This document shows positions 16,991 through 22,900 of a stretch of DNA of 64,000 nucleotides, piece by piece. Made by a program: the position numbers and the translations under genes. The notes beneath the pieces were generated by a model. That model saw only the letters and a list, made by a program, of their open reading frames with translations. It did not search any database and was not told the origin of the DNA. Every line of letters begins with the position of its first letter. Position 1 is the first letter of the stretch. This DNA is from Muricea muricata. Its lineage: Eukaryota > Cnidaria > Anthozoa > Malacalcyonacea > Plexauridae. Where the stretch lies: contig OY979718.1 in the NCBI GenBank assembly GCA_963855995.1, positions 1,077,501 to 1,141,500 of the forward strand, in the 5' to 3' direction.

Positions 16991-19900
16991 ATGAGATGTA
17001 AGGCATTCTGCGTCAATGGCGACATCATTGGTAACGTTCCTCAGTATGTTTATGAACAACTTGAGAATTATAAAGAAGTTTTTACCGTCACTTCGGATTG
17101 TGTGACTTTGAACGAAACGTTAAACACTTCGACAGAAAAAACATACAAGATTAACAGTGTGTTAGAATGTTTGCGTAATAAGAATATTTTTTGTGCATTA
17201 AGAGGGTGGAGAAATGAGGTAAGTCATTACAATTACCTCAGTATAAATTACTATGGGTCATATCCACCATATATATTCAAAACCAAGAAATGAGACGTAA
17301 ATTATGCCTTGCGCTAGCACAACCTCACCTGGGCAATGCCACCCGAGTATGAGCTCCACAATCTATCAAGCTATTACGCCACCTTCGTGAATGCACGCAG
17401 ACGAGGTTACATCCAAATATATTCCTAATCTCCCATTTCCCGGCACTACTCTTAAAGCTATAGCACAGGACTTCAAACCCTCTTACCCATCTGCTATTGG
17501 CATGAGTTCCTAGACCCCCTGTACATTAAATTAGTAAATTAGCGAATAAACCTGGTAGATAATAATTTATATATTGATGTTTTGCACTCAGGTGAAGTGT
17601 ATGTTATGTATGGTGTTACCCTGGGTTTGCATCCCCACCCTGCAAGCTGAAACGTCTGACCACGGTGGAAATCAAAGACACGACCTTTTTCAGCTTGACT
17701 CATGGTGTGCATACAAACTTAGAGTAACAACATACATGAAACATCATTTTCACCTGAGTGCAAAACATCAATACATAAATATCACATCACGTTTAAGATT
17801 ACATTGATATCGAGGGAACTGGATTGAACCGAGCTGACCGCGTAGCAGACCTGGCAGAGCGTTGAGCTAGCAGTTTACAAAGCTCGTGTGCTCAATTCCT
17901 GCCGTAGTCAGGCATATTTTTTAGCTTGCCTGGTGTGAATATAAAACTCATAGTAACACCGTATAAAACACTAAATAGTAAATTACCAAATTGGTGAAAT
18001 GTTGACCTCCCCCCCCCCCCACGCACAATAAAAACAATGGACTTTTAAATGGACTTTTTTATAATTTCTAGATGTACAATGTATGTAAATCATTTGGACA
18101 GAAACCGTTGTTTCAAATGGAAAGGTCGGCAGTGTGTAAGTTCCTAATAAAAAGCTAAAAGAGTTAATAATGCTTATCAATAACATTGCATAGACTATGT
18201 ACCTTTTTGAGTTAGCCGGATTGCACTTCATCAAAAAATCGGTTAATTTACATTTGCAACTATGTATGAGCTTATACCGCTATACGTTATTTATGATAAG
18301 TCTAAGTTTTATTCTTCCAAACCACTATTTGAACAGTCAAAGATCTTACCAATCAAGTATAGAGTTATGTGTAGAGCTGCTATTTTAGTTTACGAAGCTG
18401 TAAATAACTTAAGTCCAGATTATTTAAGTAGTATGTTTAAACCAGCTTCGTCTGTTTTCTAGTGTCGAACTAGAAGCTCCTCTAATATGAATTTTGGGTA
18501 CCGAACTTTAAGCTGTCCATAACTAGAAATGGTCTTCAATATAATGGAGCAGTTATTTATAACATGTTACCACCAGATATTAAGTCATCTGGGTCGTTAT
18601 CTATATTTAAGCGTAAAGTTTATAATTTCATTCTTAATTTATTCATATGTTCTTCATAATTATAAGTCTATGCATGAATTATTTTTAGACATATTGTTTA
18701 TACAGAAGGCCCAGTGGAAGATTAGCATTATTAGCTAAACTGGTGTATTTATTTGTAAATACTTTAAACCTCTAAATAAAGCTATATTATTATTATTATT
18801 ATTATTATTATTACCTCTAAATAAAGCTATATTATTATTATTATTATTATTATTATTATGACTATTTCGCCGAAAATTTTGGAACAGTAAATAAGAAGAA
18901 TCTCGATTATGAATTTGATATCAAGTATGCTAACTATACTAAACAAGAGCTAAAACGGGAATTGAAATCGCTAAAGTGTCAACCAAATGCCGATGTAAAT
19001 AATATTAGATACGTCTCACAATTATTACGAAGATTATCCTCGAGGAAAAATTTCACTTCTGATGTTAATTCCCTCAACGATGACGAACAAATTAGCAAAA
19101 ATTTCTGGCGCTATGCGAAATTAAAGCTTGAGGTTGGTAAAAATATTTTACCGACTTTTAATTTGTCAAGTTGCACAAAGTATTTTATAAACATGTGGAG
19201 AAGCTTATTTCCCACGCTTACTTTTACCATGCCTGACTGGATACCCCCATTGTCGACTCCAACGCACCAATTTAATTCAGACCCTCCCACTTATGCAAGA
19301 TTAACTTCAATCATCAGAAAAATGAAATCTAATAGCTCGGCTTGTCCGCTTGACCAATTCTCCATTATCTCGTTAAAACACTCTGCTTACCTCAGGACGT
19401 ACTTAACTGCCATAATTCAGAACGTATGGAAATCGGGTCAAATTCCGGAAGTGTGGAAGAAAGCGGTCACTATTTTAATTCACAAAAAGGATTCTCCTGA
19501 TGATCCCCAAAACTTTAGACCGATTACTCTTCAGTCCGTTCCACTGAAAATCTTTATGTCGGCTTTGCGTAATACAATGTACGAATTTCTATTAAAGAAT
19601 GGTTTCATTGAAAACAGCATTCAGAAAGGCTTCACCCCTGGTATGTCTGGTACCTTCGAACATACATCACACTTAGCATTTCTAATTAAGCAAGCCAAAA
19701 GACAACAGCGCTCCCTAACAGTGACTTTGTTGGATTTGAAAAATGCTTTTGGTGAGGTTCACCATCGATTGATTCCTACGGTATTACAATATCATCACAT
19801 CCCAGAGCATTTTCGTAAATGCGTTGAAAATGTGTACAGTGACTTTTATTCATCTGTAATTACTGATGCATATCAAACGCCTTTCATCAAAGTTAATAGA

Positions 19901-22900
19901 GGAGTTTTGCAAGGGTGTTGTTTTAGCCCACTGTTGTTCAATATGTTGATGAATACTTATGTTCAATATATAAAGTCTGAAAGATTTATTCAACTCGGCT
20001 TTACGGCATCCCAACCCCTTTTAAAACCTAAACACTGGTTTCAATTCGCCGACGATGCGGCAATCACAACTGGAGAAGAATATGAGACTCAAATTTTACT
20101 GAACGCTTTTACTGCATGGTGTTCATGGGCCAAAATGACATTGCGGATTGACAAGTGTAAATCATTTGGGGTATCTAAAGTGAATTCTACTAGCTCCCAG
20201 ATTCTTCCTAAATTATATTTAAATCGAAGGTTGATTCCGTCAGTAAACCGTAATGAAAGCTTTTGCTATTTGGGACGTTATTATAATTTTGCTATGGATA
20301 ATACAGATCACAAGCAGATATTGATCTCGGAGACTGAGGATATTTTGGAAAAGATTGATCGGCTTCCATTACACCCGAAGTTTAAATTACAATTGTACAT
20401 GAAATACTTGTTACCCAAAATATCCTGGCACTTGACAATCGCAGATATTGACAAGACTTGGGTCAAACAGACATTGGATATGATATGTCATAATAAATTT
20501 CGTGCTTGGCTTGAGATACCTCCTTGTGGCACTCTAGATATCCTATTTCTTTCCAAATCCAAATTTGGCCTGAATATAGTGGATATATCAACGAAATTTA
20601 CACAGAGTCAAGTCGTTTTGAGAAATAAATTAAAGAATTCGAGCTGTCTTGACATTCGCCAGGTATATGAAGCCAGTAGCACGAATACTAATGTCCAGTA
20701 CGATCGTTATCTCAAGCCGAAGGAAGTTATTCGGGAAATCCGGGCTGAAAAAGTTGAAAACATCAAAAATCATTTAACTTCTCAAAGCTTAGTTATAAAA
20801 TCTCTTTGGAAAGAAGCCTTTCCTGATATGATTAAAGACTGGCATGCCACCTTAGATAAATTACCAAAGAACATTTACAACTTTGTCACGAGATATTTAA
20901 ACAATACTCTGCCAACTTTAAAGAACATGCTTATTTGGAATAAAGCAACCAGCAATCTTTGTTATTCATGTTCAAACGTGCAAACCTTACAACATATTGT
21001 GTCATCTTGTAAAGTTCATCTGGAGCAAGGGCGTTATACCTGGCGTCACAACTCGGTACTTAAAAATCTTGTTGAGTATTTATCAAGTGTGAAGAAAGAT
21101 TTAAGCTTTTATGCAGATGTTGACGGCTTTGAAAATCCATCAATAATAGCAGGTTTAGAAGTTCGACCGGATATGATCATTGTTAACACTACAATTCGAG
21201 CAATTTATGTTATCGAGCTGACTATTGGTTTTGAAACTAATATTACTAAAAACTGCACTAGAAAAACTTTACATTATAAGGAATTTTGCAATGCTTTGAA
21301 GCAGCGATATGACACTGTAGAATATTTTAATTTATCAATGGGAGCTATTGGTGTATTTGGACTGGAGTGTAAAAAGATTTATGACTTTTTAGATAATGTA
21401 TTGGGTTTAGATGTATCTCAAAGAAGCTTTATAGTTAGGAAATTATGCGGAGTATGCATTAGGAGTACGTACTATTTATTCTGCATGAGAGACAGGAAAT
21501 GGAATAACCCGGAACTTTTATATTGGTAATTTTGACTTTTAATATCTTGGTGTATATAGATTTAAAAAAAAATTTCTGTACCATAGTAACAGCCTGGATG
21601 CCTACATATTGTAGTGAGTGCAGGTTGTCATATTTTTAATAGTGTAAATTGATTATTAAATACATGTTTCCATTATTATTATTATTATTATTATTATTAT
21701 TATTATTATTATTATTATTATTATTATTATTATTATTATTATTATTATTATTATTATTATTATTATTATTATTATTATTATTATTATTATTATTATTACG
21801 TCATGTTTATTTGTTTCCTTGTAAGTTGGCATGGTGAATGTCACTGATAATTTTGTGGAAACGCCACGTAAATTTATCATCGCAAAGCAAGTTCGGATTT
21901 CACCCGATCCAAACGTTAAAACTCAATATGATTATCAGTATTAGTTTATTGTATCCACTAAATTATTGGGATTATCACGTTTTGGGTTAGGGTTGGAGTT
22001 TGGGTCAGGGTTCATTTTAGAATTATCAAACGTTGTAACCAGTAGTTTTATTGGGTTACAACGCTCGGCTGCGGATCTTCATCATTGCTAACTGAGCTTA
22101 CGAATCGAAAACTTAGTGAAACCATATATTTATTAATTTACTCAGCCCTACCTAGTCTAAGGCTTACTGTGTCTGTTTTAAAAACTTTAGACATTGTTAA
22201 AATGTGTCTCGCTGTGAACAGAACTCTTCTCGTTGTATATCACCTGAATATATACAGTTAACTTGAGTAGATGTGTTATTTTCGTTAAAATTTAATCTGC
22301 TGGCAGTTTTGGTTTGTGCATTTTTAACTTTTTTCTTGTTAATTTCAAAACCTCAGGAAAAAATCTTATGCATTCAGTTAAGTTTTCTCTAAAAGTGTTT
22401 CCTGCTCTATAGTTAAGCTTTTGAAACGTTTTCTTGCGTGTCATTAAAGTTAGCATCGTGATAAACTGGAAATACTCGCAAAGATTTTGTTTCATAATCT
22501 TTGGACAGAGTTTCAATTATAGTTTTTTTTACAAATAGCGCTATTTGGAATACAACAGTATGGTGTGCATATAAATGGCTATAGAGAAGACGAAGATAAC
22601 AATTTACAAATGTGGATAGCTCGACGCAGTTACAAGAAACCAACATATCCTGGGAAACTAGACCAGATAGTAAGCTAATAATTGGAAAAATGTTTCTTCA
22701 CCGTTTCGCCACCATTGCTCTCCATTGTTCATCATTGAAAATGGCCGTGGTGTTCAAATTTTAAAAATGACAAGTAGTTTTCGACACTCTTCAAATGAAC
22801 ACAAATATTTCAATACAAATGAACTGTAACTCCGGGTCACAGTATAGGGAATGGACAGTGGAGCCACTCAATTGAAGTTTGTGTATCCATGCATATCGCA

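Follow-up and report, generated by a model that had tools for sequence, protein, structure and literature searches.

What does it mean that a retrotransposon in the window, a 64,000-nucleotide (nt) stretch of the Muricea muricata genome (contig OY979718.1, positions 1,077,501 to 1,141,500 of the forward strand), lies exactly between two arrays of the trinucleotide ATT? Microsatellite-specific long interspersed elements (LINEs) are already known. In this one genome the entire loop is on display, from a LINE tail to a landing and on to the next landing site. The window copy, called W, is very probably a recent 5'-truncated member of a lineage that inserts into (ATT)n microsatellites in one orientation, with LINE tails seeding the sites and stacks of elements growing in them. 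The parts of W and the arrays that bound it are:

18860-21671, + strand: family A copy of a non-long-terminal-repeat (non-LTR) retrotransposon of the restriction-like endonuclease (RLE) type, 5'-truncated, delimited by comparing genome copies.
18866-21529, + strand: open frame, 887 codons and a stop, encoding the C-terminal 887 of ~1075 residues.
19478-20170, + strand: reverse transcriptase (RT) domain RVT_1 (Pfam E = 8.8e-24).
20045-20056, + strand: FADD motif, read in frame.
20960-21010, + strand: CCHC knuckle, C-X2-C-X7-H-X4-C, a motif in the translation.
21164-21217, + strand: candidate RLE motif, RPD-X14-E, with a weak alignment to the R2 C terminus (second stretch, i-E 0.039).
18830-18859, + strand: left (ATT)n array, immediately 5' of the element.
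21672-21798, + strand: right array, (ATT)42, with the element end ..GTTTCC directly before it.

The frame is stop-free from 18866 to 21526 and closes with TAA at 21527-21529. An R2-type architecture (RT with FADD, CCHC and RPD..E) without a frame break had been proposed in a first-pass annotation made from the letters alone, and the 887 open codons and the RVT_1 match bear it out. The earliest in-frame Met of W is residue 110, and full copies of family A (~3.5 kb, ~1075 amino acids) carry ~188 additional N-terminal residues, which identifies W as 5'-truncated. The zf-RVT domain scored 26.0 with the W protein in Pfam, slightly below the cut-off of 27.5. The nearest solved relatives of this protein are R2 proteins (E = 1.6e-32), with 25-27% identity across the RT region. 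Judged by its predicted protein, W belongs to the RLE-encoding non-LTR retrotransposons on four counts: RVT_1, the CCHC knuckle, RPD-X14-E and R2 as the best solved relatives. Searches for relatives in a viral contig collection by protein, pattern and alignment returned none, and the scans made of a genome contig collection gave one bacterial RT at 22% identity and no eukaryotic relative.

The host genome (453 Mb, 74 contigs) was searched for further copies. Family A was defined as all listed matches with at least 87% identity and comprises W plus 16 loci (labeled L022-L037), a lower bound. W is 99.75% identical to the L022 copy. Pairwise identities among the ten long copies are 98.1-99.8%, which indicates that family A moved recently. 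The junctions of these copies were read directly. L034 and L036 have internal breaks; the other 15 of the 17 retain the 3' end, and every one passes from ..GTTTCC, or a one-base variant of it, into ATT repeats; 12 of these tails are arrays longer than 40 bp, some of them interrupted. At the other end, 16 copies have a visible 5' end (that of L036 is masked), and in 15 of them ATT repeats precede it, in full-length and truncated copies alike. The eight truncated copies have eight different truncation points, and the truncation at the repeat first noticed in W recurs in the other truncated copies. Copies in unrelated flanks were not seen, apart from the 5' end of L031, and with the same exception no intact end lies anywhere other than at an ATT array, so insertion of the R2 type at the 28S ribosomal DNA (rDNA) site was not found.

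More distant relatives behave in the same way. The group at 46-50% identity has 35 listed matches, and five loci (L017-L021) were read. Four are near-identical and form family B; the fifth, L021, is 58% identical to B. All five are flanked by ATT on both sides, with three units on the right of L019, and L017 and L018 share a flank.

Two features of the 5' ends were recorded separately. The family A 5' ends of L024, L025, L026 and L027 contain repeated small 5' pieces (AGCCCTC.., AGCCCTCGAGGGAGTCGG..) with intervening ATT, as if RT had jumped or restarted. A 5' motif like GTCGG.CG..TTTGG.CGCTCCTGC is common to several subfamilies, being present in L023 (sense 7454-7500), at window positions 43131-43180 and at family A 5' ends, and is possibly a structured RNA, although Rfam gave no credible match for it.

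The orientation of the lineage relative to the repeat is nearly uniform. Among the segments matched by tblastn in 22 loci, 77 of 78 run in the same direction; the single opposite segment is a 24% match in L031 that is unconnected to any array. On the sense strand of the 22 loci, pure arrays of at least seven units number 101 for ATT versus 1 for AAT. The pattern GTTTCC(ATT)5 occurs at 197 places genome-wide and the reversed pattern at zero.

The elements also stand head to tail. A relative in the same orientation was found across the ATT array in 11 of the 15 family A copies with an intact 3' end. Relatives lie downstream in L022, L023, L024, L025, L029, L030 (across a second array), L031, L033 (across three units) and L037, and upstream in L022, L025, L028, L032 and L037; none was found across the array in W, L026, L027 or L035. 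The array and the first protein match are separated by 100-190 bp in L023 and L029. Thirty C termini read from these loci fall into 13 clusters at 90% identity and 11 at 70%. Stacking statistics were calculated for the first 100 of the 197 GTTTCC(ATT)5 places, from contig C1 and part of contig C2. A neighbor lies within 10 kb of 53 of the 100, compared with a random mean of 1.2 and a maximum of 10 in 2000 draws. Neighboring pairs are on the same strand in 33 of 34 cases (shuffle mean 17.5, maximum 28). The self-propagating nest suggested for the window is thus supported beyond one locus.

Four arbitrary 9-kb stretches and the remainder of the window served as a control and held no ATT or AAT array of at least seven units. 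The only lineage match in this control is a fragment at 43.4 kb in the window, which belongs to a second, decayed relative:

43117-43616, + strand: second relative, decayed and internally deleted; an ATT tract is followed by a 5' end that resembles, in its 5' motif, the one of the element lying downstream of L023.
43379-43468, + strand: C-terminal remnant of this relative (tblastn 14/30, E = 1.3e-4).

No ATT tail was seen at its 3' end.

One pair of loci was compared at the level of the flanks. The genome holds two occurrences of a 62-base flank of L027, one in L027 itself and one in L032. Over 1134 aligned bp the flanks of these loci have 13 substitutions between them; the family A bodies have 28 over 3455. 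The L032 ATT array holds an extra truncated relative that is missing from the L027 array at matching flanks. The L032 family A copy is 99.74% identical to the L022 copy and 98.93% identical to the L027 copy. Because it is nearer to L022, the A copies of L027 and L032 may be independent insertions or affected by conversion. The identity matrix speaks against reading these loci as a simple empty/filled pair, and only the additional truncated relative in L032 is claimed as a difference between them. Unless both of its elements were deposited jointly, the L032 array received insertions on at least two occasions.

The left array of W leads to the origin of the landing site. The features 5' of the element are:

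18247-18784, + strand: 3' end of a decayed older LINE with the tail AATAAAGCTAT(ATT)n; two LINE-like C-terminus frames were recognized by eye, and the sequence belongs to a dispersed family with a common 3' end.
18768-18857, + strand: exact 45-bp tandem duplication, ACCTCTAAATAAAGCTAT(ATT)9 twice (Tandem Repeats Finder, 100% match).

Pure ATT arrays of at least 20 bp number just three in the 64 kb, every one touching W, and no AAT array of at least four units was listed in the window. The observation that ATT tracts abut both ends of the element, with W at 18860-21671 exactly between them, stands. The left array is split by the 45-bp duplication, and both units end in (ATT)9. Both units are on the 5' side of the element, which means that they are not an ordinary target-site duplication.

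The older LINE, putatively CR1/L2-like, gave no match in Pfam. Its segment 18300-18783 is a dispersed repeat with 40 matches listed, including the window's own. Fifteen other copies reach the common 3' end (query base 481-484), and ~400 bp beyond each of these ends was read. Twelve of the 15 continue into at least three ATT units, the tails of L045 and L058 are very short or imperfect, and L049 has no tail. The LINE family therefore ends in ATT tails of widely varying length, and the left tract of W is confirmed as such a tail. The array of L052 continues to the limit of the sequence read. The search for target-site duplication candidates of the older LINE gave no repeat longer than 9 bp. An insertion in the LINE tail was found in 3 of the 16 LINE copies (W, L046 and L048), in the same orientation throughout. 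The tail array of L048 is followed by a related element with its 5' end, and the LINE array of L046 by a short 3' piece of a related element carrying its own ATT array. The microsatellite tail of this LINE has been the landing site of another retrotransposon at two loci besides the window.

The host sequence around W was recognized from three coding exons:

16982-17218, + strand: DUF4743 exon (Pfam E = 1.3e-18), exon start not defined, GT donor at its end.
~22539-22669, + strand: next recognized coding exon, GVHINGY..., found by a motif pattern, boundaries read.
~23804-23917, + strand: exon with a NUDIX box (Pfam NUDIX E = 0.024, below the cut-off and weak alone).

Host exons on the + strand on both sides put the element in an intron, in the sense direction, and agree with the proposed host intron, here that of a DUF4743/NUDIX-type gene. 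The splice phase predicts a further small exon between the DUF4743 exon and the 22539-22669 exon, but it was not found.

The 3' end of the element carries a structure next to the ATT tail:

21588-21629, + strand: stem-loop in the 3' untranslated region (UTR) of W, predicted by folding the terminal 148 nt, which as a whole score z = -2.16.

A motif pattern collected 23 distinct 3' ends, and 13 were aligned after seven family A variants and three near-duplicates were excluded. The 13 relatives have a common 11-bp stem with 97.9% of cells paired, a value that 0 of 500 shuffles reached, and 11 cells changed on both sides (0/500 shuffles). Covariation was 0.390 versus 0.232 in shuffled alignments (0/500) and no more than 0.124 when slid; kinship among the 13 sequences can inflate these scores. 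Family A lies outside the covariation set and has its own stem-loop at the same place as the hairpin of the relatives. A 3' UTR hairpin followed by an ATT tail is consistent with target-primed reverse transcription in which the RNA is recognized by its 3' end and its (AUU)n pairs with a nicked (AAT)n strand.

From this anatomy we infer the enzymatic steps and, for most stacks, the order in which elements arrived. The endonuclease would nick the (AAT)n strand of an array, and the element RNA would pair by its (AUU)n tail with the nicked end. RT would recognize the conserved 3' UTR hairpin and copy upward from the primed end. The 5' end would frequently be truncated and joined inside the array. 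LINE families with (ATT)n tails, such as the window's old LINE, would provide the first sites, and later elements of several subfamilies would enter the arrays of earlier ones to give head-to-tail stacks. Template jumping may contribute to the stacks, as small 5' pieces with extra ATT precede some full-length copies. Because a new copy comes to lie with ATT on either side and retains one tract as a tail, the landing site would not be consumed.

Several points weigh against this account. The loci read had been picked because they contain these elements. The visible 5' end of L031 is away from any ATT array, in L028 and L029 the recognizable element start is separated from the array by ~ten other bases, and the 3' tails of L028, L033 and L035 have just 3-4 units. 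The account does not explain the exact 45-bp duplication of the older LINE's tail, (ATT)9 included, to the left of W. A target-site duplication would be invisible within a repeat, which leaves target-primed insertion unproven. The L027 and L032 A copies need not be the same insertion, so events there may have come in more than one order. The nuclease assignment comes from motifs and a weak alignment; a single-sequence AlphaFold model had a confidence score (pLDDT) of 34 and was not used. Two of the five hairpin measures do not depart clearly from chance: shuffles scored as high for the 4 stem pairs changed on both sides in 50 of 500 cases and for the 11 further pair types in 206 of 500. The stacks may partly come from template jumping or from recombination between arrays.

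The arrays might be products and not targets, with ATT tails self-made by 3' slippage and 5' arrays derived from AT-rich sites or later repeat growth. The array after the element end in every intact copy read agrees with this, and LINEs are known to produce simple-repeat tails (PMC2887409, PMC3747384). However, 15 of the 16 visible 5' ends also follow ATT arrays, eight of them at different truncation points, neither 36 kb of arbitrary sequence nor the window remainder holds an array of at least seven units, and the element in W, L046 and L048 is preceded by an array that an older LINE left as its tail. Self-made arrays are a very improbable explanation. Head-to-tail stacks might instead be laid down in single events if RT, having reached the 5' end of an RNA, jumped onto the (AUU)n tail of a second one. 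End-to-end template jumping is a known property of R2 RT, and the 5' junctions of L025, L026 and L027 hold small 5' pieces with extra ATT. This origin is unlikely for stacks whose members come from different subfamilies (11 clusters at 70% identity among 30 C termini), for two loci that differ by one member at matching flanks (L027 and L032) and for an element that sits in a LINE tail without a stack, as W does and as L048 and L046 do as far as they were read. Unequal exchange or ectopic recombination between ATT arrays, in place of fresh insertion, could also build or multiply stacks. Long pure arrays are generally recombination-prone, L017 and L018 have a flank in common, and recombination is invoked for microsatellite-linked stacks of plant Mutator-like elements (MULEs) in PMC5907723. 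Exchange between arrays would not, however, produce the eight truncation points of eight family A copies, and we consider this reading quite unlikely. Insertion into pre-existing (ATT)n arrays remains the preferred reading.

The first-pass annotation had also called the element R4/Dong-like, and this label was not established. The architecture and the duplex microsatellite are the same as those given for Dong in most insects, molluscs and cnidarians in PMC7998251: a single ORF (open reading frame) with RT, CCHC and RLE, and a TAA/ATT trinucleotide target. The strand is opposite. The primer and the 21-nt cleavage product in PMC3774820 place (TAA)n in sense for Bombyx Dong, whereas the junctions here have (ATT)n in sense, the same duplex in the reverse orientation. 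R4/Dong elements are reported to lack N-terminal zinc fingers (PMC7998251), whereas two N-terminal Cys/His motifs (CSYCNVDFKSIGRHVWRC, CCCGKKCKGLRGLKAHQRSC) were recognized by eye in family A, with counterparts in family B. With E values up to 1 allowed, Pfam called neither a finger nor a Myb domain there, the R4/Dong N terminus being characterized by a divergent Myb-like domain; the finger difference is therefore soft. Rfam gave no credible match at three 5' ends, where an R4/Dong element would carry a hepatitis delta virus (HDV)-like ribozyme, though such ribozymes diverge widely, and nothing credible on the window at the gathering threshold. The chance that W is a genuine R4/Dong element whose target orientation is inverted falls slightly short of even. 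Nematode R4 targets rDNA. The best label is (ATT)n-specific RLE retrotransposons.

Telomere-targeting retrotransposons (TRAS/SART, MoTeR, HeT-A/TART) form head-to-tail stacks because each copy keeps or provides a landing site. The elements described here work alike, but at interstitial ATT arrays, one of them in an intron, rather than at chromosome ends. R2 also carries RT, CCHC and RLE in one ORF, but its target is 28S rDNA. HERO and the NeSL-related Togen are RLE retrotransposons with microsatellite targets, like the lineage here; some HERO families are microsatellite-specific, and Togen is specific for (TG)n and not (ATT)n (PMC4640811). Unrelated plant MULEs are stacked at microsatellites without interrupting one another in SaTar arrays (PMC5907723), but these are DNA transposons without reverse transcriptase. 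LINE tails are a known source of microsatellites (PMC2887409). Head-to-tail stacks are unmentioned for Dong in the portions of the literature consulted, and no report of RLE stacks at interstitial ATT arrays, or of the combined loop, was found in the searches made of the open-licence literature.

We favor, with some reserve, a broader view in which a guild of RLE retrotransposons, represented by the 11 clusters of C termini, lives in a telomere-like manner on interstitial (ATT)n. Unrelated LINEs ending in (ATT)n would seed the sites, each insertion would preserve and perhaps lengthen its site, and one-directional head-to-tail stacks would form on the strand opposite to that of Bombyx Dong, so that microsatellite and elements amplify each other. 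These loci offer a natural system for three questions: what lets an RLE read a trinucleotide repeat and tell its strands apart, in what way a nicked target is paired with 3' UTR hairpins and repeat tails, and whether microsatellites outside telomeres can be made to grow by selfish elements.

Other features of the window are separate from the element. Two adjacent cytidine deaminase frames on the - strand, 12162-12599 and 13859-14269 (Pfam dCMP_cyt_deam_1), are apparently tandem paralogues. A GRXCR-like gene on the + strand at 27640-31667 has glutaredoxin and GRXCR1/2 C-terminal domains in successive frames (Pfam). Inverted repeats lie within 10870-11678 and 14648-14815; they include nested ones with 212-nt arms (94%) and a perfect 79-nt one with 10 nt between the arms.

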